From assembly GCA_011033025.1 (NCBI GenBank), contig WFMF01000222.1, positions 1 to 64,000 on the forward strand: 64,000 nt of DNA, read 5' to 3'. Shown here in pieces: positions 53,101 through 64,000 of this stretch. The stretch is from Beroe forskalii (Eukaryota; Ctenophora; Nuda; Beroida; Beroidae). A program made the position numbers and the translations under genes. The notes under the pieces were generated by a model. That model was not told the DNA's origin and did not search any database. It saw nothing but the letters and a program-made list of their open reading frames with translations. Position 1 is the first letter of the stretch. The number at the start of each line of letters is the position of its first letter.

Positions 53101-54047
53101 TGTTGTATCAAATATTGTTTTCACATTTAATTAAAGGGTGTGGTTGTGGTTTTCCCAGAGCTCAGGGATGTCCTGATGACTGAATTTCAAGGAGAATTTT
53201 TTGTTCTTCTTCTAACAGGAAGAAGTGGATAGGTCAGAAGGAAATTTAAGCTAAGCTGAGCCAATCTACAGTTGAATTTGTTCCGCTGGTGGAACCACAA
53301 TACAAAAATTGGTGTCTAGATGTTTCAAGTTTATAGTAAGGCATCCCAATATTATTGATTTGACAACTTTGTTGAATCAGGTGATTTTTCAGTAATGTAC
53401 AAGGGGATTGGATATCTATATTTCTTAATTTTGAAAATTTCATTCAGTAGAAAAGTTTATGAAGATTATGAACAGTTAATAATTTCAATTCAGTGAACAG
53501 AGGCTTGGTGTGTTCCAGTTCAAAATTCTTTGGGGCTAATTGAACATCAATTGATCTAGTTCTGGCACATGTTTTATAATATTCAGCATGATCAAAGTTT
53601 AACTTTTTTCCATAAAGTAAAATATACCTCTTTGAATATTAAATATATTTTCAATTTATTGTTAGATACAGAGCCCCATGTTGATATTCCATAAGTTAAG
53701 TGTGGTGTAAAGAGTGAGTGATAGAGTTTACTAAATTGATCTTTAAAGAATTTCCTAACTTTAATAGTAATGATTGAGTTTATTCAATTTTTGTTCTAAA
53801 TGTTCTAGACCTCCCAGTTTAAATTTTCATCTATAATTATCCCAAGATATCTTGCCATATTTGTTTTCTTAATCTTATTACTACCTAGATATAATTGGTG
53901 CTCACTACCAATAATTTTAGTCCCACAAGTTTTTTGGTCATTATGGTTGAGCCTTGGTCTAAAATGTATGTATACATTTTTCAATATTAATATGAAGTTG
54001 ATTACTTAGCATATATAATCTTATATCTTTTAGAGCCTCATTGGCCC

Positions 54048-55321
54048 TCAGATAAGCTTCTTGCTCTGATTTCCAGATACAAATATATTAGTGTCATCAG
54101 CAAACATAACAAAGTGTCCAAGTGTAGAACAATTGACTATATCATTTATATAAAGAATGAAAAGCAGTGGTCCTAAAACAGATCCCTGTGGAACACCATA
54201 TTTGACTGGCAATAAATCTGATTTCATAGAATCATAATTGGTAAGTTGATATCTATTAGTCAAATAACTTTTCAAGAGTGTTAGTGGTGAGCCTCTGATT
54301 CCATAATTTTCTAATTTAACCATTAGTTTCTCATGGCATATGGTATCAAAGGCTTTACTAAGGTCTATAAATACACCAAGTACATGGTTCTTATTTTCAA
54401 TATTAATATTTATCTTATCAATTGAGTAGTTTACAGCATGGGAAGTTGAGGTGGCTTCGAAAACCATATTGGTTTTCATATAACATTTTTTGAGACTACA
54501 AAGTTGTATAAACGGAAATATATAAGTTTTTCAAATATTTTTCCAAAGCATGGTAGCATTGAAACAGGCCTATAGTTTTTGAATAGCTGTTTATTGTCTT
54601 TCTTAAAGACAGGAGTAATTTGGCCAATTTTGAGAATATCTGGAAATACACCAAGTTCAATGAACTTATTATAAAATTTTTCCAAGCATGGATTTATGAT
54701 TGATAAGCAACTTTTAAGAACTCTTACAGGAATATCACTAGCTTTACCATTTTCTAAGTCATTGATTATTTTTTCTAATTCTAAAGCTGTACATGGTTCA
54801 AAAAATAGGCTATCATTTACTCTCTTACCAATATAAGTTAAAAAGTCAGGAATAGGGGATATTGGAAGGTTTTCAGATTTATAAGCATTTTCATTCAGTT
54901 CTTGTGCAACTGATACAAAATATTTATTGAATTCATTAGCAATAATTCTTCTATCCTGCACCAAGCGTCCATTCACCAGAAAGGAACACTTAGACTTCGA
55001 TATACTTTTACCTCTCAGTTCATTAATTAAATCCCATGTTTTTTTACTATTCCCTTTGCAGTTATCAAATTTTTTGGAATAAAAACTACTTTTAGCCGAT
55101 TTGATCAAGGTTCGCAATTTCTTACGATAGTTTTTGTATCTATCATAGACTTCAGAATCCCCCATGTTATTTTTGGCATTTTTAGTTTTTCTCCATTTTT
55201 CATACAAGAAATTTTTATAGTTTATTGAATTAGTGAGACCATTAGTAATCCAAGGATTCTCTATTCTATTGCGCTTTGAAAGTTTTACTGTCTGGCAAGT
55301 AATTTTGAAGCATTCATCCAT
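54048..55321 (-). CDS. LINE A ORF2, linker and reverse transcriptase (frameshifted)
   Basis: The frame 55321-54476 starts in the linker after the endonuclease ([20 protein letters not shown]) and enters RT ([29 protein letters not shown]). After a frame break at about 54476 the frame 54479-54048 carries [30 protein letters not shown] and the catalytic FADDTNIF. Further RT/thumb sequence is readable but broken down to about 53240 (MARYLGIIIDENLNWE, LTYGISTWGS). It copies the element's RNA at the nicked target; this copy is no longer intact. Confidence 0.85.
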
Positions 55322-55339
55322 AAATAATTATTTATACAT

Positions 55340-58300
55340 TATAGTAATTTTTAAGCAAGCTTTTAAGAAGTGCTGGCTCCTTAAAAATTAAATTAATAAG
55401 AGTTAAAGAAAAAATTACCTACAAAATTCCAAAATCTATGATTAACTAAATGAGTACATGAATATAATTAATTATTACCTAGTACCTACTTCTAGAAGAT
55501 AATCTACTGAATATCGCATAAGATTCTTGATCCTTAAATCAGATGCACTGAATAAATATTTTTAAGCAACGATTTGAAAGAATCAACATCACTAGCAGAA
55601 ACAATATCAGAAAAAAAGATCTATTCATTAACTAGGATAATCAGTCAAACTCTTATACCAGGTTTATTTAAATTTGAACTGTACGAAGTTTGTGACCATG
55701 ATGAATATTGAAAAGTTCTTGAAGATAAAAATATATAACCAAATTTTGATCTGTTTGTATCATTTTTAAATGATTTTTCATATATTTACCAGTACAGTTC
55801 ATTTCGGAGGGTCATTGACTAGATGATCATGTTTTATTTATACCATAAAATGTTTTAGCACATGGGCATTCTGTATTAACTGGTTGGCAAGAAGTTTTTT
55901 CAGATATTCCAAGTATAAACCATTACAATAATCTAAGCATGAAACTACAAAGTGAGTTTATGATTTTTTAACTGACTTGTGCTTAGAAGGAATCTTATCT
56001 TATTGACATTCCTTTATTGTCCTAAACACCTCTTTTCAATTCAGTCACTTGTTTTATTTAGTGTCAACTCTGAATCAAAAATATAATCCAAGATTTCTGA
56101 ATGATGATACAAATCGAATAGAATACCAGAGGGAAGGTTGATTCCCCCCAGATCCCAATACTATTCAAGGTCCTGTGACTGCCAATTATTGCAATTTTGA
56201 GTTTTTTGATGTATTAAGTTGAAGATAGTACTGATCCATCCATATCTTTGTCTTTTCAAAGCATCTTTGTGTTCATAAACCAAAACAACGCCTTGTGATA
56301 ATGGCTTGAATGACATCATTTTTGATGATCATCAGCATAGCCTTGTAAAAACCCAGACTTTTAACAAATTTGTATATGGACCTTATGTATATATTAAACA
56401 GAACAGGTCCAAGGACAGAGCCCTGAGGAACCCCAAACTTGATAATGATCTCTCCAATAATGTCGCAGCCTGACTCTCTGTGTCCGGCCAGTCAGAAAAC
56501 TTTGAACCAAGACAAACAGTAATTCCCTCAGACCTAATCTCATTCCTTAGTATCTTCAACAGCAATTCGCCTTGGTCAACTGTATCAAATGCAGCTGAAG
56601 GTCCTAACATCATCATAACTGTACAGCTTTTTTCGTCACCAGTAAACAAATAAATCATTCCATATCCTGATCAACAATGTTTCAGTACTGTGATGTTTTT
56701 GTATGCTGATTGTTCCTTGAATGTGTAAACATTTAATGCTAAGGTGATCATTGAGTCTACTTGGGACAACCAACTTTCAATAAGCTTACCTAAAAGGTCG
56801 ATTAGATACTGAATCACAAAGTTTTCAGGTTATTTTGATCTGAAGAATCATTCTTTAACAGGGGGTATGATATCAGCCCTTTTTACCGTCCATGTTACGG
56901 TCGAAGAGAAAAGGTTAACCCAGATGGGCAAGAACAGGTGAAATAAATCAATTTTTCTTTGAAGAGTGAGTGATGGTAGCAGATCATCCGTTGAACATTT
57001 GATACCTGTCTCATCAATGATTTCCTTTATCTCCATCTAGTTTGTAGATTGAAATCATGCATAAGTCTCATTTGAGTAATTCATCACATCAACCCCTATA
57101 ATTGGATCTGAAGACAACTGACCTGATTTTGTCCCAATCTTTTCCTGAAAGAATAAGTTGAAACTGTGTGTACTAATTGAGACATCATCATTTGTGTTTG
57201 GAGTAGAGGTTTAGCTTGATTTCTATCAAGTTCCTTATTTACCTATCTTATAGAGTTTTTTGATTTCCATCTGCTTTCTTTATCATACAGAAATACACCT
57301 TTTTTCTTTTTCAGATGCCATCTCAGAACATTTGACTGAGATCCTTGTACAAAAATCAAGTTTGATTGTGATTTGGATTTCTGTCTTTAGCTTTCCTTCT
57401 TAATTTTCTCAACTGCCTATTCTGAGTCCAAACCATGGAGCAACATCAACAACAGAAATATTCTTTTTTGGAGGTAAAGGGGCATGGCTGTCAGAGCAGA
57501 GTCCCTTGTATTACTGAAAAGTTCATTTTACAAATAAAACCAAAGTCCCTATCTGGATTATTCATACTTTTGCTCCGAGAGGGTACACTCAGGAATTTGT
57601 GGAAACTTTAATGTGTCAATACTTTTTAGTTTTCCTGTAGTTATTGACTTTGAGTATTTTTCTCCATGCTTAATATCAAGTACAGTATACTGGAGAGAGA
57701 GAGAAATGGTTAAGAAAGCAGAACAGATGCACTATCAATAACAGTTTCACTTTGGGAAATTTTGACCTAAAAAAAAGAAAATGGGTAAAAGGGGGGCCCC
57801 CTGAGATATGTGTTGCCTCAAACACCTGTCTTTTTCATGCCACAAGACTCAAAAATTTGTAAAAGGCTTGCTGATACAGTTTTTGTCTTTTGATCCAAAG
57901 TGAAGACATATCCCCAGCAGAACTAGACGGGCCCTTTCAACAGAATATCAGAAATTAAACCCATCTAGCTCTTTGTTAAATAAAACTGACATGTTTCCTG
58001 GCCTGTTTTAAAACTAAAAAAATGATTTTTTGTTCCATTGGGGAAATTTAATGAAAAAAACACTATATTCAAAGGAATTAGTCTGAAAGGGTTGGGGGAA
58101 AACCCGGGGAAAACCCGTTTATAGATAAAAGCAGTTCCCCCTCCCTCTTGTCTTTCCTAAAAGTATGGTTTTATTGGTAACCAAAGCTTTTTTAAAAAAG
58201 TAAAGGGGGGGTGGCATGAATCAGTTAGCCATGTTTCACATAAGGCTGCAATATCTATCTATCCTTGTCATTTAAGTTCATCTGACGGTAATCTTTATTA

Positions 58301-59751
58301 ACAAATTGACATTGGGTTTGAAAAGCATAAAGTTCAGTCCACTGTCAGTTTTTGAGTATTGTTGGTTCAATTACTTTCCTTGATAAAAAGGGGTGGTTTC
58401 CTTAGTTTGCTGATGATCAATAAGATGGGGACAGTTCGTGTCGTTAACCCAGGATGTTTATGATCACTGGCCCCGTTGAACACAGTTTACACAAGATGCA
58501 ATAGGGGGTCAGCTTTCAGAGAACAAGTTCTGGTTTCATGGTTGCCACTGCAATGACCGCAAGCTGGACCATCTTTACAGTCTTTTACTATGATGCACCC
58601 CAAACTTCTGACAATTGTAGCATCTCAGAACATAAAAACTATGTAAACCTTGCACACCGGTTGTGACCCAATATAAACTCTATCAGACTGTTTAGATAGA
58701 ACAGATCTAATAACATTGCTAACTCTGACAATTGCCTTATAGTGTGAAGGTTTAGATCTTAATAGTAAAATAGCCACAATGTCCAAATTTTTGTCATCTT
58801 CTGAAACATCTGATTCAAACAATGATTTTATCCCAGTGTTTTGTCTCTTGATCATATCTGTAAGCTCCTGCTTTTTCATATTCCCTACTCCAACCCAACT
58901 ATAGTGATTGTTGGGGTTTTGTGATACTTGTTCAACTTTGTGTTGAGGATGTTTGTCAGCAAGTTTAGTCTTGAGCATTAGCATCAGCCTTGGACTGAAG
59001 TATAACAGCTGTATCACCTGTTTTTTCATCTCAAAGAATTCAGAACACCTACCATCATCCACACAAACCCTCTCCAAATGTGACCTGTCGAATTGATCTA
59101 CCTTGACCATCTTTCTTGATAACCATCATGTGCTTTGGGTATATCAACTTTCTGCTCATCACTCCAAGGGTTTTTGTTGACTCACTAGAGGATGGTTCAC
59201 TGATACATGTTCTGACACAGTTGAAGTTGGTTTTATAGCCATATCAGTTAGTAATGATTTCATTTCAGCCAGTTCATCTCTGAAATCTGTCTGCATTGAA
59301 TCAATTTTTCTCTCCAAAATATCCACTCGCTCATTCTGAGAGACATTGGCAATCTCCTCCTTTTTTGTCAAACAGTGGTTACATAGAAAGAAAAAACACC
59401 CAAATCTCTTCTCAAAACCACGGGTTTTATTCACTGCTGGCAATAAATGGTTGGTGAAAGAGGAATTAGCTGCAACACAACTAGCTTCATCTTCACACCC
59501 AATGGCATGAAATAGATTTTGGCAACAAAAACACTGGATTGCATGAGTAGATACATCAATAACACACTTACAAGTTTTGCATTGTCCATCTGATATAATA
59601 TTTGGAGCAGTGATATTGGATGATGTTGCAGAAGAGGATGCAGTAGATGATGATGTTGTTGAGTCCAACTTTGACAATACTACTTTCATTGGTTTTCGGA
59701 ACCAAGCCATTATTGACATCGACCTGTAACGAAACTGAGGACTCATCAACC
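55340..59751 (-). mobile_element. LINE B: second non-LTR element inserted into LINE A
   Basis: Same orientation as LINE A, breaking it between endonuclease and RT. Its ORF1 (59751-about 58500) has a PHD-like finger (CKTCKCVIDVSTHAIQCFCC, then FHAIGC), a coiled coil (VDILERKIDSMQTDFRDELA) and an RRM-like part (VSNVIRSVLSKQSDRVYIG). Two frameshifted CCHC knuckles follow (CYNCQKFGVHH, CGHCSGNHETRTC; 58610-58500). ORF2 is badly decayed; RT is visible at 56658-56383 (AFDTVDQGELLLKIL, with [10 protein letters not shown] readable in another frame at about 56430). It is more decayed in ORF2 than its host, although inserted later. Confidence 0.7.
58625..59110 (-). CDS. LINE B ORF1, C-terminal fragment
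   Basis: 161 residues in a frame shifted from the upstream finger and coiled-coil part. It holds VDQFDRSHLERVCVDDGRCS, a helical segment (MKKQELTDMIKRQNTGIKSL) and KAIVRVSNVIRSVLSKQSDR, an RNA-binding-like stretch that normally precedes zinc knuckles in such ORF1 proteins. The knuckles themselves lie after another frameshift. Confidence 0.6.
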   Translation of the reverse strand: MVKVDQFDRSHLERVCVDDGRCSEFFEMKKQVIQLLYFSPRLMLMLKTKLADKHPQHKVEQVSQNPNNHYSWVGVGNMKKQELTDMIKRQNTGIKSLFESDVSEDDKNLDIVAILLLRSKPSHYKAIVRVSNVIRSVLSKQSDRVYIGSQPVCKVYIVFMF

Positions 59752-60958
59752 TTCCCTTTGTTTCAATAAATTTGGCAAAACCTGATTCATCAGCACTAAA
59801 TTTATCCACGGAGAGTTTCTGAGAAAGCCTAGTGTTAAATTCAATGATATGACTTTCACAATAGTCATAATGGGTTGAAGAACTATCACCAGTATCATCA
59901 CTAGTTTTATTATTACTATTAGTGTCATTTATGTCATAAAAACAAACAGTTGGGTAGTGATGAGATACTTTCATATCAGTTAGTAATCCAGAAGCAATTA
60001 CATAATCCACATCAGAAACAAAGATATTATCAATGCAGGATGAGTCACATCCAGGTTTTTCATGAGTAGGAAGAGAGATTGTTGGAATGAAACAATTGCC
60101 AAAAAATATATTCTCAAATTTTGATCTGTTTGTATCATTTTTTAAAAGATTCACATTGAAGTCACCACACATGATAGAATGACTAGATGATTCTTTATTT
60201 GATAAAATGTTCAGTATCTTTTCAATTTGTAGGAAGAAGTTTTTCAAATTGCCACTAGGAGGTCTATAAACCACACCAAAATTGAATTTTTCACTGCTGG
60301 TAGATATTTTTATAAAAAGGGTCTCAATATCAGGGGATATCATTGTTAGCTCTTTAATGATATTTCCAGTGAAAGTTTCATTGATATAAATGCCTATTCC
60401 ACTTCCTTTATGTTTATTAGGATACTTGGAGCTAAAAATTGAGGAATATCCAGGGATTTTATAAAGGTTTTTATGATTCTCATTAATGTTTGTTTCTGTG
60501 ACTGCCAAGAGATCAAATTTATTATGGAGCACAGAGAGCTTTGTCAGTAAAGTATCAAAATTTTGTGACATACCATCTATGTTATTAGAGAAAATGGCCA
60601 AGGGCTTTTTATCAAATCCAAAATTATGGGAATTTATCACATGGTTAGACATAAGTTTGCAATCATTGAGACAGCTTTTTATTTTCTCAATCTCAGCATA
60701 AACTTCAGGGTCATCAGGACTGTATTTATTATAGCTTATAGAATTAAATGGAGAATATTTGAGTACTTTTTTGGTTTGGCAGTCATAGCAAAACCATTGG
60801 TCAACAATTTGATTATATTGAAAAGCTTTTTTACCACATTTGTAATGAGAAATTTTGTTGCATAATGAGCATATCAGTATCTTTTGATGAATATAAATTT
60901 CTTTGCAGCAGTTCTCACATAATTCACGTCTGGTGATCAATTTATGATTGGTAGCCAT
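59752..60958 (-). CDS. LINE A ORF2, zinc finger plus AP-type endonuclease (N-terminal part)
   Basis: The open frame runs to 59159, but only about the first 400 codons belong to this element. Residues 14-60 form another PHD/RING-like finger (C14xxC17, C30xxC33, H38, C41, C57xxC60). Residues 116-342 are an exonuclease/endonuclease/phosphatase fold: N126 in SNNIDG, E155 in VTETN, Y231 in VYRPPSG, D265 and N267 in GDFNVN, and H333-H334 near the end. This enzyme nicks the target DNA for target-primed reverse transcription. The endonuclease frame is followed by linker sequence and is cut at about residue 400 by LINE B; its continuation is at 55321. Confidence 0.8.
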
Positions 60959-62522
60959 TATTTAAATTATGTAAGTTATTAAGGTTTCTAGAGCCTCCAA
61001 TGGGAAAGCTATCACGATGATTTCCGGTCCATGGATAAGGATGAGATGGGAGAGGTCGATTACTTGGCTTATATGTGGGGTTGGGGTTCCAGAAAGGAAA
61101 CTGATTGTCAGCTGCATTCTTGTTATTGCTAGAAGTATTGTTGGTCATGGAGAAATTGGAATTTCTCGTAGCTTTCCTTTGAATGATACTGTTCTTTATG
61201 TTGGAACAGAAAGTTGATATACCTCTTGATCCAAGATGAACAGCATCATATACCATAGCTGCACCATCCTGGTGGTGGCGCCCCAGGTCATGTGTCAACA
61301 GACCTGAGCTGTTAGCAAGATTTTGATGCAAGATATTGAACATATTGGTATGATTATTCACAAAGCTCTTGATGTTTTCATTGAACTCATGTACAAGTGC
61401 ATTGAGACCTGGATCTTTGGTGGGGAGTAGTAAGCTAACAAATATTTTCATGTCAGGAAATTTTGAGTGGAGAGCAGTACATTTTTGTTCAAGTTTTGCT
61501 TTTAGTACTGGGATTGGTAAGTGATTTTTGTTCCTAATATCATTTATCCCACAGTGGATCACTAAGTTACGGTAGGGAAATTCTAGCTCATCAGGACCTG
61601 GAATATCATCAATTCTCCCAGCTTTTACTCTGCAACCAGGCAACCAAACACCAAATGTATTCCTCCCAGAGCCAAACTTTAGATTCTGAGTATTTGAGTC
61701 CCCCACTATAATGGTTGAGTTAAGGTAATAAGGGGCTAACTGTCTGAATGTAATGCTATATCTTGTATCAGAACATTGATTTGTAGGGATTTCATGCTTC
61801 CAGAATTGCTGGGATGCCCTTGAGAAGGAAAGAAGACTATTGTCTGCCAGATTGATAGAATGCTGATCCTCAGATGCTGATGAAAATTTCATTGGTCTTT
61901 CTGAGCCAATTGACAATGTGTAAATGTCAGACCACTGAGCAATAAAGGCTTCATCATCACTGTGTTTTGGGCAGACATTAGTTCCATTCTTGTATCTTGT
62001 TATGAGACAGGAATTGACAATAGTTTTTGGGAATTTGGCTGATATTTGCTTTACAATGGGTTCAAGTGCCTTTGGAATGGGATTGGCTTCATGCTGTATA
62101 GCTCCATATCGATACCTAAACTCACCATAGTAAGCAACATCCCTGCTGCTGCCACCTGAATTTATGGTTTGAAAGTCATTGCACTTTTTCAAAAAGTTTG
62201 AGACTTGTGAATGGAGTTCTTCATCAAGGAAGTCTTCCTCATAGCTTTTGATAGGTTTACAAGTATTTGGATCAAACTTGTAGCTAGTTGGTTTGTTAGC
62301 CAAACCTTCATTTTCCTGGGTAGCTGTACTAGAACAACTAGTGAATGTTGTAGATTTCAGACCAGTTAAAACTTTATTGACATCAGTTTTGAAGGCATCA
62401 GCCTGATCTTTTGATAATTTCTCAAGGGCTTTGATTTTATCTAAGATTTCAAGATTGAGTTTAGTAAGATTTGCTAGATTATTACCATGATTTGATTCAC
62501 GATCAGAGCTATCACCTTCCAT
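60942..62522 (-). CDS. LINE A ORF1: AlkB-type dioxygenase fused to SGNH hydrolase
   Basis: 526 residues. Residues 15-55 look like a coiled coil. Residues about 95-262 match AlkB 2-oxoglutarate/Fe(II) dioxygenases. The nucleotide-lid-like start is YYGEFRYRYG; the iron ligands are H187 and D189 (KHSDDE) and H243 (KHEIP); the 2-oxoglutarate arginines are R254 and R260 (RYSITFR). Residues about 270-445 match an SGNH/GDSL hydrolase: GDS at 274-276, GIND with N327, and DAVHL with D426 and H429. All catalytic residues of both domains are present. The C-terminus is Asn/Pro-rich. An SGNH esterase is known in CR1 ORF1; AlkB proteins demethylate alkylated RNA or DNA. Their union here suggests a role in handling the element's RNA (inference). 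Its stop overlaps the next start by 17 bp. Confidence 0.85.
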   Translation of the reverse strand: MEGDSSDRESNHGNNLANLTKLNLEILDKIKALEKLSKDQADAFKTDVNKVLTGLKSTTFTSCSSTATQENEGLANKPTSYKFDPNTCKPIKSYEEDFLDEELHSQVSNFLKKCNDFQTINSGGSSRDVAYYGEFRYRYGAIQHEANPIPKALEPIVKQISAKFPKTIVNSCLITRYKNGTNVCPKHSDDEAFIAQWSDIYTLSIGSERPMKFSSASEDQHSINLADNSLLSFSRASQQFWKHEIPTNQCSDTRYSITFRQLAPYYLNSTIIVGDSNTQNLKFGSGRNTFGVWLPGCRVKAGRIDDIPGPDELEFPYRNLVIHCGINDIRNKNHLPIPVLKAKLEQKCTALHSKFPDMKIFVSLLLPTKDPGLNALVHEFNENIKSFVNNHTNMFNILHQNLANSSGLLTHDLGRHHQDGAAMVYDAVHLGSRGISTFCSNIKNSIIQRKATRNSNFSMTNNTSSNNKNAADNQFPFWNPNPTYKPSNRPLPSHPYPWTGNHRDSFPIGGSRNLNNLHNLNNGYQS

Positions 62523-62983
62523 ATTGCCTGAGATAAATGTTTGGACCCCAGAACATTTATAGTCCTTTTTAATGGTTTGAATTTGGCAGGGGAGTGCATA
62601 CTAACAGTAGTAACGTCAAGTTCTTCTTCTGTGTCTGAGTTGGGGAGTAAACCTGGATAATGCATATGACATTTCTGACACATGAACAAAAAGTTTCCCC
62701 ATCTGGATGAATTGTGCTTGTAGTGTGCAGCTAGTGGACCATACATTTCGAAAAAAGTTTTTGAACAAATAGCATCACTAGTAAACCCTCCTTTCTTGTC
62801 TCTACACAAAGCATGAAATGACTTACGACATATTGAACATGCAATAGATTCATTAACAATGTTCTCACTGAAAGGACATCTACTGCATCGTCCATTTGTG
62901 ATGAGAGGGTCTTTGATAACATTGTCCTTTACATTGCCATTGGTCTTTTTAGCTGTCATAGTGCTGCGTTCCTTCTTTAGCAA
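62474..62983 (-). CDS. LINE A ORF1, PHD-like zinc finger part
   Basis: 169 residues. Cysteine/histidine pattern: C33xxC36 (RCSRC), C49xxC52 (CSIC), H57xxC60 (FHALC) and a late CxxC (FMCQKCHMHY, about 101-104), as in PHD or RING-like fingers. Such fingers occur at the start of CR1 ORF1 proteins and are thought to help RNP assembly or chromatin binding. The last 17 codons overlap the next frame, and a single frameshift would join the two, so this is probably the N-terminus of one ORF1 protein. Confidence 0.7.
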   Translation of the reverse strand: MLKKERSTMTAKKTNGNVKDNVIKDPLITNGRCSRCPFSENIVNESIACSICRKSFHALCRDKKGGFTSDAICSKTFFEMYGPLAAHYKHNSSRWGNFLFMCQKCHMHYPGLLPNSDTEEELDVTTVSMHSPAKFKPLKRTINVLGSKHLSQAIWKVIALIVNQIMVII

Positions 62984-63140
62984 TAACCTGTAACAGTATT
63001 ACCATCCGAGGAAGGGAGGACAGTAAAACTGTGCTTACACTGGCGCCCAGTGCACTCCCACCAGATTGTTCAGTAGGTTATGACAGCAAAGACTATACAG
63101 CCATACAACTGTTTATATTTAGTTGTATAGTCCAGACCGT

Positions 63141-64000
63141 TCACCACAACAAACTTTGCAACTTGGGTTCCTCAAATTTGATTGTAATTAGTAGTGTTGT
63201 TAAGTTTAAAGAAATGGTGGTTGGGTACCCATCTACATTGCAAATGAGAGGACTTATCGCGGAGTCTGTGCAGTTCATTTGATCTCGATTATCGAAACAA
63301 AGATGAGCCGAAAAATATTTCTTTGCTTTGTAGTTAGGAGGGGAACACTTGCTTTGAGGATGTAAATGCCGAGTAAAAGTGAAGACATTAAAACTTTCAC
63401 ATGTATCATTAGGATCACATCCCAGTTCGTCTCGTCCGTTTGAGCAATGTCTTTCTTCATCACAGATCCTGTAAGGTGGAATATAATCATATGGACCATA
63501 ACAATTCCTGTAGAAGCCGGCCCAATAGGGTACTACCCGGCAAATCATACCGAAAGTTGTGTGATTGCCAGCGCTGCATCTTGCCTCATCATAGCAATCC
63601 TCACAGTCACAGATCTTGTCACATAATGACGATCTGGGAACCCTCTGACTTTTTTCCAATCCAGGACATGGTCCACAATGAACCATGTTTTCTTTTCCAA
63701 TGTGTGAACACAGTCTTTCATCCACTGCAATACCATCCAAGGTGTTCAGACAGTCGACTCTACCATCACATATTCTCAATAGAGTTTCGCCTTTGTCTAA
63801 AGTAATGTTCAAACCATCACGAAAGTTCCATAACCCTTCTCCTGATCCAGGTAGCATGTGACAAAGTATGTCCCCACAAACTCCTTCTCCTGAGTCTAGG
63901 ACAAGGTTGCTGGATGCCCACTTGTCGTGCCCACATGATTGGTAGAAGGACGGATCTCCTGGGCAGGTGTAGGAGTAGACTATATCCTTCCAATCAACTT
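63141..64000 (-). CDS. LDL-receptor class A-type ectodomain exon (open at the window edge)
   Basis: The frame is open from the right edge (VDWKDIVYSYTCPGDPSFYQ at 63999) to a stop at 63141. It is extracellular in style: many cysteines, several NxS/T sites, and repeats with the LDLa calcium-cage pattern (ICDGRVDCLNTLDG, LCDKICDCEDCYDEARC, ICDEERHCSNGRDELGC). LDLa modules bind ligands outside the cell, in lipoprotein receptors and in snail GRL101-type GPCRs. The last codons (from about YPTTIS on) look non-coding, so the true exon may end at a donor near 63227. LINE A starts about 100 bp downstream. The signal peptide and the rest lie beyond 64000. Confidence 0.75.
   Translation of the reverse strand, partial: VDWKDIVYSYTCPGDPSFYQSCGHDKWASSNLVLDSGEGVCGDILCHMLPGSGEGLWNFRDGLNITLDKGETLLRICDGRVDCLNTLDGIAVDERLCSHIGKENMVHCGPCPGLEKSQRVPRSSLCDKICDCEDCYDEARCSAGNHTTFGMICRVVPYWAGFYRNCYGPYDYIPPYRICDEERHCSNGRDELGCDPNDTCESFNVFTFTRHLHPQSKCSPPNYKAKKYFSAHLCFDNRDQMNCTDSAISPLICNVDGYPTTISLNLTTLLITIKFEEPKLQSLLW

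Follow-up and report, generated by a model that had tools for sequence, protein, structure and literature searches.

Type IV, or esterase-type, proteins of the first open reading frame (ORF1) are known from long interspersed nuclear elements (LINEs) of the CR1 and L2 groups, an example being zebrafish ZfL2-1, whose esterase, solved as structure 4c1b, was shown to bind lipids but not oligo-(A) RNA (PMC3905857). None of the esterase ORF1 proteins in RepBase has a structural RNA-binding domain, which the same article poses as an open question (section 13); it places such proteins in many animal phyla (section 12), differing from PMC4120745, which restricts them to the L2 and CR1 groups of vertebrates. 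The subject of this analysis is a LINE of the comb jelly Beroe forskalii, lying in a window of 64,000 nt (positions 1 to 64,000 of the forward strand of contig WFMF01000222.1, assembly GCA_011033025.1), in which an ORF1 frame on the minus strand joins an AlkB-type dioxygenase to an SGNH hydrolase. Like ZfL2-1, it has an SGNH esterase with intact active-site residues; PHD fingers are also known in the ORF1 of Type IV CR1/L2 LINEs, and an apurinic/apyrimidinic (APE) endonuclease and a reverse transcriptase (RT) occupy their ORF2, as they do here. However, Type IV ORF1 has been described as lacking a structured nucleic-acid-binding domain, whereas here the esterase is preceded by an AlkB, a domain that would be expected from its family to bind nucleic acid.

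Precedents for an AlkB in a selfish genetic element are a retrotransposon of the Ty3/Gypsy type in orchids, encoding an AlkB with measured N6-methyladenosine (m6A) demethylase activity (PMC9289625), and the replicases of plant RNA viruses. The orchid protein falls among ALKBH5 homologues and is encoded by a separate ORF of a long terminal repeat (LTR) element, with no SGNH domain mentioned in the part of the article drawn on; that of the comb jelly, in contrast, lies in a LINE ORF1, is ALKBH2/3-like and is fused to SGNH. The plant virus domains occur in a replicase context, and named giant-virus AlkBs are structurally nearer to the LINE AlkB. Human ALKBH2 and ALKBH3 have the same fold and active site, but are free-standing host repair enzymes with an Asn where the transposon proteins have Ser. 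In bdelloids, LTR elements and Terminons carry a GDSL esterase as ORF3, a case of one esterase type common to unlike elements of a single host (PMC5408684), although the main text of that paper contains no occurrence of AlkB or dioxygenase. No AlkB in a LINE or Helitron was found among the matches listed in the open-access literature, and those reported here may be the first of their kind, so far as that literature shows.

The ORF1 frame occupies 60942..62600 on the minus strand (552 aa from stop to stop; residues are numbered from this frame, in which the Met taken as the start by an earlier sequence-only reading is residue 27, an offset of +26). It comprises a linker, coiled-coil-like by eye, the two enzymatic domains and a C-terminal tail. 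The AlkB-type Fe(II)/2-oxoglutarate (2OG) dioxygenase domain (residues 146-290; 61731..62165, minus strand), with H213, D215, H269, R280 and R286, scores 57.1 bits with the Pfam model PF13532 (cut-off 31.2, E = 3.7e-15), the match covering residues 162-286. The SGNH hydrolase domain (residues 294-470; 61191..61721, minus strand) has S302, G351, N353, D452 and H455, and its PF13472 score of 23.8 bits is below the cut-off of 32.9. Among 14 aligned ORF1 copies (alignment A1), eight have a PF13472 match at E <= 0.01; the five AlkB residues, and G300-D301-S302, G351, N353, D452 and H455 of SGNH, are unchanged in all 14, with D354 of the GIND block almost but not fully so. The window protein alone finds ALKBH2 and ALKBH3 as its best solved relatives, at E values of about 1e-7, and these also lead when the A1 profile is compared with solved structures (4e-18 and 9e-17 respectively); the same profile matches 4c1b with an E value of 5.6e-4. 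Hence the sequence-only reading, which had placed the catalytic residues of both enzymes in one frame, was right as to all the residues it named, every one of which is present at 60942..62522 on the minus strand. Its proposed hidden Markov model check bears out AlkB in full; SGNH has, besides its invariant residues, the match to 4c1b and a Pfam match that fell short of its cut-off.

The fused frame is present in many copies. A search of the genome with PF13532, in which the 150 best of 189 candidates were scored, host AlkB genes included, gave at least 150 matches, all above the cut-off and 140 of them free of stops, a number far beyond what chance would give. With the window ORF1 protein as the query (79 of 306 candidates scored) at least 83 matches were found, at least 59 of which span H213 to N353, 46 being stop-free in the sense of having no stop inside the match. 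At least 47 loci, the window included, extend from AlkB through SGNH (N196 to H455), and 40 of these are stop-free, on 37 contigs; the other 39 stop-free loci are 30-71% identical to the window protein, six at 60% or more, five at 45-59% and 28 at 30-44%. The sequence-only reading had suggested looking for further AlkB-containing copies, and the fusion it described evidently belongs to the LINE rather than to one insertion. In relatives with long frames the order of ORF1 is PHD-type finger, linker, AlkB, SGNH. On its domain content, rather than on placement of its RT, the element is classed as a CR1/L2-like LINE of the Jockey superfamily; no RNase H is listed in the Pfam scans of the ORF2 frames. 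A window-type relative, L035, has an RT scoring 106.8 bits and an endonuclease at 24.1 bits (cut-off 24.5). About 0.9 kb of unrelated sequence interrupts the RT of this copy on contig C170, at approximately 2400-3310 of L035.

A second deep lineage, termed LINE-B (L013, L016, L019, L023 and others), also has an ORF1 composed of AlkB and SGNH. Its ORF2 frames are 860-995 aa long, with an RT above the cut-off in all four scanned and a PF03372 endonuclease above the cut-off in L013, L019 and L023 and below it in L016; by eye, L019 ends in a (GAATT)n tail, L016 has a shorter tail and L013 an ATT repeat. Searches with LINE-B ORF1 (83 of 231 candidates scored) and ORF2 (46 of 3,069 scored) found at least 17 loci spanning both domains, 15 of the 17 stop-free, and at least 15 ORF2 matches reaching the ORF2 N-terminus (query start <= 20). 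Of these 15, thirteen have an ORF1 match 54-201 bp ahead of them in the same orientation and two have no such match; in four of the thirteen, the ORF1 match covers SGNH but hardly any AlkB or none at all (query start 238, 271, 317 and 382). The RT of the window type (L035) is 35% identical to that of LINE-B and 29% identical to that of an AlkB-less LINE of the same genome, which shares 31-34% with LINE-B. Such an AlkB-less LINE lies at L026:6696-9506 on the minus strand, with L124, and its ORF1 region contains a CCHC zinc knuckle (22.7 bits, cut-off 20.8). Neither a zinc knuckle nor an RNA-recognition motif (RRM) was found at E <= 0.01 in the 14 rows of A1, of which L036-L041 were taken without the full N-terminus. 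Two further types were seen, each with a sub-cut-off match in the next frame, to an endonuclease in L027 and to a PHD-like finger in L018.

The same two domains also occur together in at least one Helitron. At L022 (C847:364411-374410) a frame of 2026 aa contains SGNH (31.7 bits, slightly under the PF13472 cut-off of 32.9), AlkB (70.1 bits), DUF6570 and Helitron_like_N (85.5 bits), and is followed by a PIF1 helicase frame. At L015 (C225:191073-201072) SGNH, at 42.5 bits above the cut-off, and AlkB (78.1 bits) share one frame of 1169 aa; no Rep domain was found in L015, and C225 is absent from the 20 genome matches to Helitron_like_N, such that this locus is labelled a Helitron because of its likeness to L022. 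The order in the Helitron frames, SGNH then AlkB, is the reverse of that in the LINEs. Comparison of SGNH profiles with hhalign, from shallow inputs of seven window-type, three LINE-B and two Helitron sequences, matched the window type to the Helitron with a probability of 92% and an E value of 5e-7, an alignment that covers two thirds of the domain at its C-terminal end, and gave 86% (5e-6) both for the window type against LINE-B and for LINE-B against the Helitron. Helitrons move without an RNA template; the presence of the pair in one therefore argues for a wider target, for instance single-stranded DNA or host marks, and makes a role on RNA alone less likely.

Both AlkB and SGNH of the LINE ORF1 are under purifying selection. 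Across seven close copies the ratio of non-synonymous to synonymous rates (omega), from the codon model MG+F3X4, was 0.084 for AlkB and 0.078 for SGNH, and 0.187 and 0.179 for the N-terminal linker and the tail; the analysis repeated on 14 copies gave 0.080 and 0.060 for the two enzymatic domains. Neutral decay of the AlkB part, which the sequence-only reading had raised as one outcome that would undo it, is rejected, given an omega of about 0.08 and the retention of the active-site residues: no decay of the HxD, H and R positions was seen. The endonuclease of the window compared with that of L035 has a ratio of non-synonymous (dN) to synonymous (dS) divergence of about 0.13 (0.155/1.21), and the AlkB of the window differs from that of its sister copy L009 by a dN of 0 and a dS of 0.022.

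In order to place these AlkBs, a tree was built from 30 classed as transposon-borne (duplicate loci and pieces of under 120 model positions being dropped, and an RT or Rep neighbour checked for some only), host ALKBH2 (L012, E = 2e-64 to human ALKBH2) and ALKBH3 (L010, E = 5e-39 to human ALKBH3), two more stand-alone, host-like frames (L004 and L011), human ALKBH2 and ALKBH3, and 21 of 80 bacterial AlkBs. The bacterial set was found with the host ALKBH3 query and kept from 536 confirmed sequences, so that its sampling is biased; beyond the transposon sequences the tree covers this host, human and bacteria only, and the supports come from unrooted trees. The 30 transposon-classed AlkBs group together with an approximate likelihood-ratio support (SH-aLRT) of 93.9 and an ultrafast bootstrap (UFBoot) of 97, or 91.2 and 94 without the bacteria; the 28 that are not from Helitrons group at 91.5 and 83, or 93.1 and 73 without the bacteria. 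All 30 retain the HxD...H iron ligands and both 2OG arginines, and N196 is Asn in 29, with Glu in L018. In the R-x-N-x-T-x-R motif, all 30 have Ser in place of the Asn present in each of the 86 cellular AlkBs sampled (six of six host or human, 80 of 80 bacterial), which suggests that the transposon AlkBs derive from one old acquisition; Ser might, however, occur at this position in further AlkB subfamilies as well. A recent acquisition was considered and rejected. Searches of viral contigs gave 70 pattern matches with the A1 profile and 54 with a host-ALKBH3 profile, without any relative in either set.

The AlkB part (residues 95-300) was modelled with AlphaFold2 (AF2) from an alignment consisting of 45 of the 80 bacterial AlkBs, which may have biased it in favour of that fold. 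The result (predicted local distance difference test, pLDDT, 87.0; predicted template modelling score, pTM, 0.83) forms a double-stranded beta-helix, as the sequence-only reading had required. Foldseek places ALKBH2 first (3rzh, E = 3.1e-15, template modelling score 0.74), followed by ALKBH3 (1.4e-14), E. coli AlkB (2.6e-10), ALKBH6 (4.1e-10), ALKBH8 (7.2e-10) and NMAD-1 (1.1e-9), with 22-27% identity in the structural alignments to ALKBH2 and ALKBH3; neither ALKBH5 nor ALKBH1 is among the 50 matches listed. The PDB titles of the matched structures name N1-meA, N3-meC and 3mC, and ALKBH2 and ALKBH3 are enzymes with specificity for N1-methyladenine (m1A) and N3-methylcytosine (m3C). In a viral library an unnamed entry is first, then giant-virus AlkBs (best named match 1.2e-14); polyproteins and replicases of RNA viruses rank between these or lower (Grapevine virus T replicase, 1.9e-11). 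The SGNH domain, modelled with AF2 from a single sequence, has a pLDDT of 40.3.

The whole LINE copy of the window, its nested insertion included, extends over 53406..63209 on the minus strand, the 5' limit being the end of the match to L009 and the 3' limit the last detectable ORF2 homology. A putative 5' untranslated region (62960..63209, minus strand) runs from the former limit to the first Met of a frame with a PHD finger (62474..62998, minus strand; PF00628, 19.6 bits, E = 9.5e-4, Pfam cut-off 24). The sequence-only reading had put a PHD-like finger upstream of AlkB; the finger is detectable, if below the cut-off, but here lies in a separate frame overlapping that of AlkB. The matching segment is the N-terminus of ORF1 in sister copies, in frame with AlkB in L009 and L026 by blastp and in L029-L034 by eye, the PHD of L029 being absent from Pfam matches at E <= 0.05. 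Endonuclease and RT had also been claimed downstream, and both are there. The first part of ORF2 (59762..60961, minus strand; 73% identical to L035 ORF2) consists of a zinc finger, identified by eye, and an AP-type endonuclease (PF03372, 24.0 bits, E = 3.7e-5, cut-off 24.5). Homology to the ORF2 of L026 and L035 then breaks at 59762-59763, resumes at 55279/55273 and ends at 53406-53412. This second part (53406..55327, minus strand) carries the RT in several broken frames, with 55-88% identity to L026 and L035 ORF2 over its main pieces by tblastn and an RVT_1 match of 69.7 bits at 54051-54530; the proposal that the copy lacks an RT was accordingly rejected. The interruption is a nested insertion of approximately 4.4 kb, a decayed LINE without AlkB (55280..59761, minus strand), with RT remnants at 56809-56063 and 56443-56360 and, by eye, a PHD-like ORF1 that has no Pfam match. 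The window contains a single AlkB/SGNH frame. As the PHD and AlkB frames differ, ORF2 is split and the RT frames are broken, this copy of the element is probably no longer active.

The sister copy L009 lies on the same contig at a distance of 20 kb and matches the window copy in two stretches, of 1,714 bp (99.4% identity) and 1,233 bp (98.5%); it extends 908 bp beyond the end of the match at 63209 without matching the window, which fits two separate insertions, and a 40-bp piece of the window 5' end recurs at L009:148-187. A cysteine-rich open frame at 63141-63998 on the minus strand, resembling the low-density lipoprotein receptor by eye, ends inside the LINE, past the 5' limit of the latter at 63209. 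Elsewhere in the assembly, the mitochondrial contig C1134 (13,339 bp; L122 and L123) is AT-rich, very divergent and ctenophore-like. Its COX1, itself very divergent, has four in-frame TGA codons and AGA at arginine positions of the conserved motifs DRNF and LDTR; frames resembling COX3, ND4 and ND5 were recognised by eye. No tRNA was found in 8.8 of its 13.3 kb (ARAGORN, bacterial settings); ctenophore mitochondrial genomes are fast-evolving and without tRNAs (PMC6991124).

We regard as virtually certain the architecture, its multiplicity, the conserved active sites, the purifying selection, the ALKBH2/3-like fold and the presence of the pair in at least one Helitron. The best explanation as a whole, the chances of which we judge to be evenly balanced, is that the AlkB-SGNH protein encoded by ORF1 of these CR1/L2-like LINEs protects the element's own intermediates. 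Within it, the proposal that AlkB gives an esterase-type ORF1 protein its hold on nucleic acid and at the same time works as a demethylase in the manner of ALKBH2 and ALKBH3 is tentative, and falls a little short of an even prospect. AlkB is taken as the nucleic-acid module because RepBase esterase ORF1 proteins lack an RNA-binding domain, the A1 rows lack a zinc knuckle or RRM, and the AlkB-less LINE has a knuckle. N1-methyladenine and N3-methylcytosine arise in single strands and stop polymerases; AlkB would hold the nucleic acid and clear these lesions from the single-stranded intermediates of the element, which for a LINE would be the RNA template and first-strand cDNA and for a Helitron the transferred strand, whilst SGNH would attach the particle to membrane lipids, a role that has been suggested for ZfL2-1. 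The sequence-only reading had guessed at removal of m1A and m3C from element RNA: the closest solved structures agree with these marks, but the Helitron argues for a wider target than RNA. Several observations weigh against this explanation. The change of Asn to Ser may have shifted the chemistry or substrate of AlkB, and repair in trans might suffice for the element, since ALKBH2 and ALKBH3 are also encoded by the host itself. Helitrons capture genes, and the AlkB-SGNH pair was seen beside only one of 20 Helitron_like_N matches. The contrast with AlkB-less LINEs consists of two elements, one alone with a scored zinc knuckle. Pairwise NG86 (Nei-Gojobori) estimates of dS are near saturation, with a median of about 1.5, and are usable in 10 of 21 AlkB pairs and eight of 21 SGNH pairs.

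The AlkB could instead strip silencing marks written by the host (m6A or m1A on RNA, N6-methyladenine, 6mA, on DNA). The occurrence of the pair in both RNA-moving and DNA-moving elements would suit such a host-directed role, as would a PHD-type finger, of the chromatin-reader kind, in the same protein, and the orchid Ty3/Gypsy element supplies a tested precedent for m6A demethylation (PMC9289625). However, the AlkB is nearest to ALKBH2 and ALKBH3, with E. coli AlkB, ALKBH6, ALKBH8 and NMAD-1 lower and ALKBH5 and ALKBH1 missing from the 50 listed matches, and in human cells m6A aids L1 and ALKBH5 suppresses it (PMC7873242), a harmful effect of m6A removal that weighs against a simple m6A eraser; we consider counter-defence unlikely. 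The invariant Ser, the long divergence and the fact that SGNH and AlkB stay together in both domain orders might alternatively point to a new substrate, whether protein, lipid-linked or tRNA, on which AlkB would act in concert with the esterase, but both fold and scores are ALKBH2/3-like, leaving such chemistry distinctly improbable.

Since esterase-type ORF1 proteins have no known RNA-binding domains (PMC3905857, section 13), the jelly roll might have been recruited simply for binding RNA or cDNA, any catalysis being a side effect; against this, the iron ligands and both 2OG arginines persist in all 30 diverged copies and omega is about 0.08, and we find the proposal very unlikely. The broken state of the window copy, split by an insertion, is the kind of observation that would accompany an artefact or a host gene caught up in the element. 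Yet a chance frame or mis-assembly is rejected in view of the 47 spanning loci on many contigs, 40 of them stop-free, and capture of a host ALKBH in a single insertion is likewise rejected, as there are many loci and the AlkBs of transposons group together in the trees, separate from ALKBH2 and ALKBH3 of the host; an origin of this sort is so improbable that it can be set aside.

A broader scenario, in which an AlkB-SGNH cassette was acquired once, before the LINE and Helitron forms split, and spread within one host phylum as a shared, membrane-delivered tool against methylation, be it damage or defence mark, is speculative and rather doubtful. With the pair in both LINEs and a Helitron, transposable elements might shield the nucleic acids of which they consist, or unmask them. 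The fusion of an esterase to a nucleic-acid-modifying enzyme means that the manner in which esterase-type ORF1 proteins hold nucleic acid becomes testable with a soluble domain. If the explanation is true, these elements would add another case to the captures of AlkB by selfish elements, beside the orchid element and plant viruses, and the methylation of transposon nucleic acid would be opened to experimental tests in the ctenophores, an animal lineage of very early origin.

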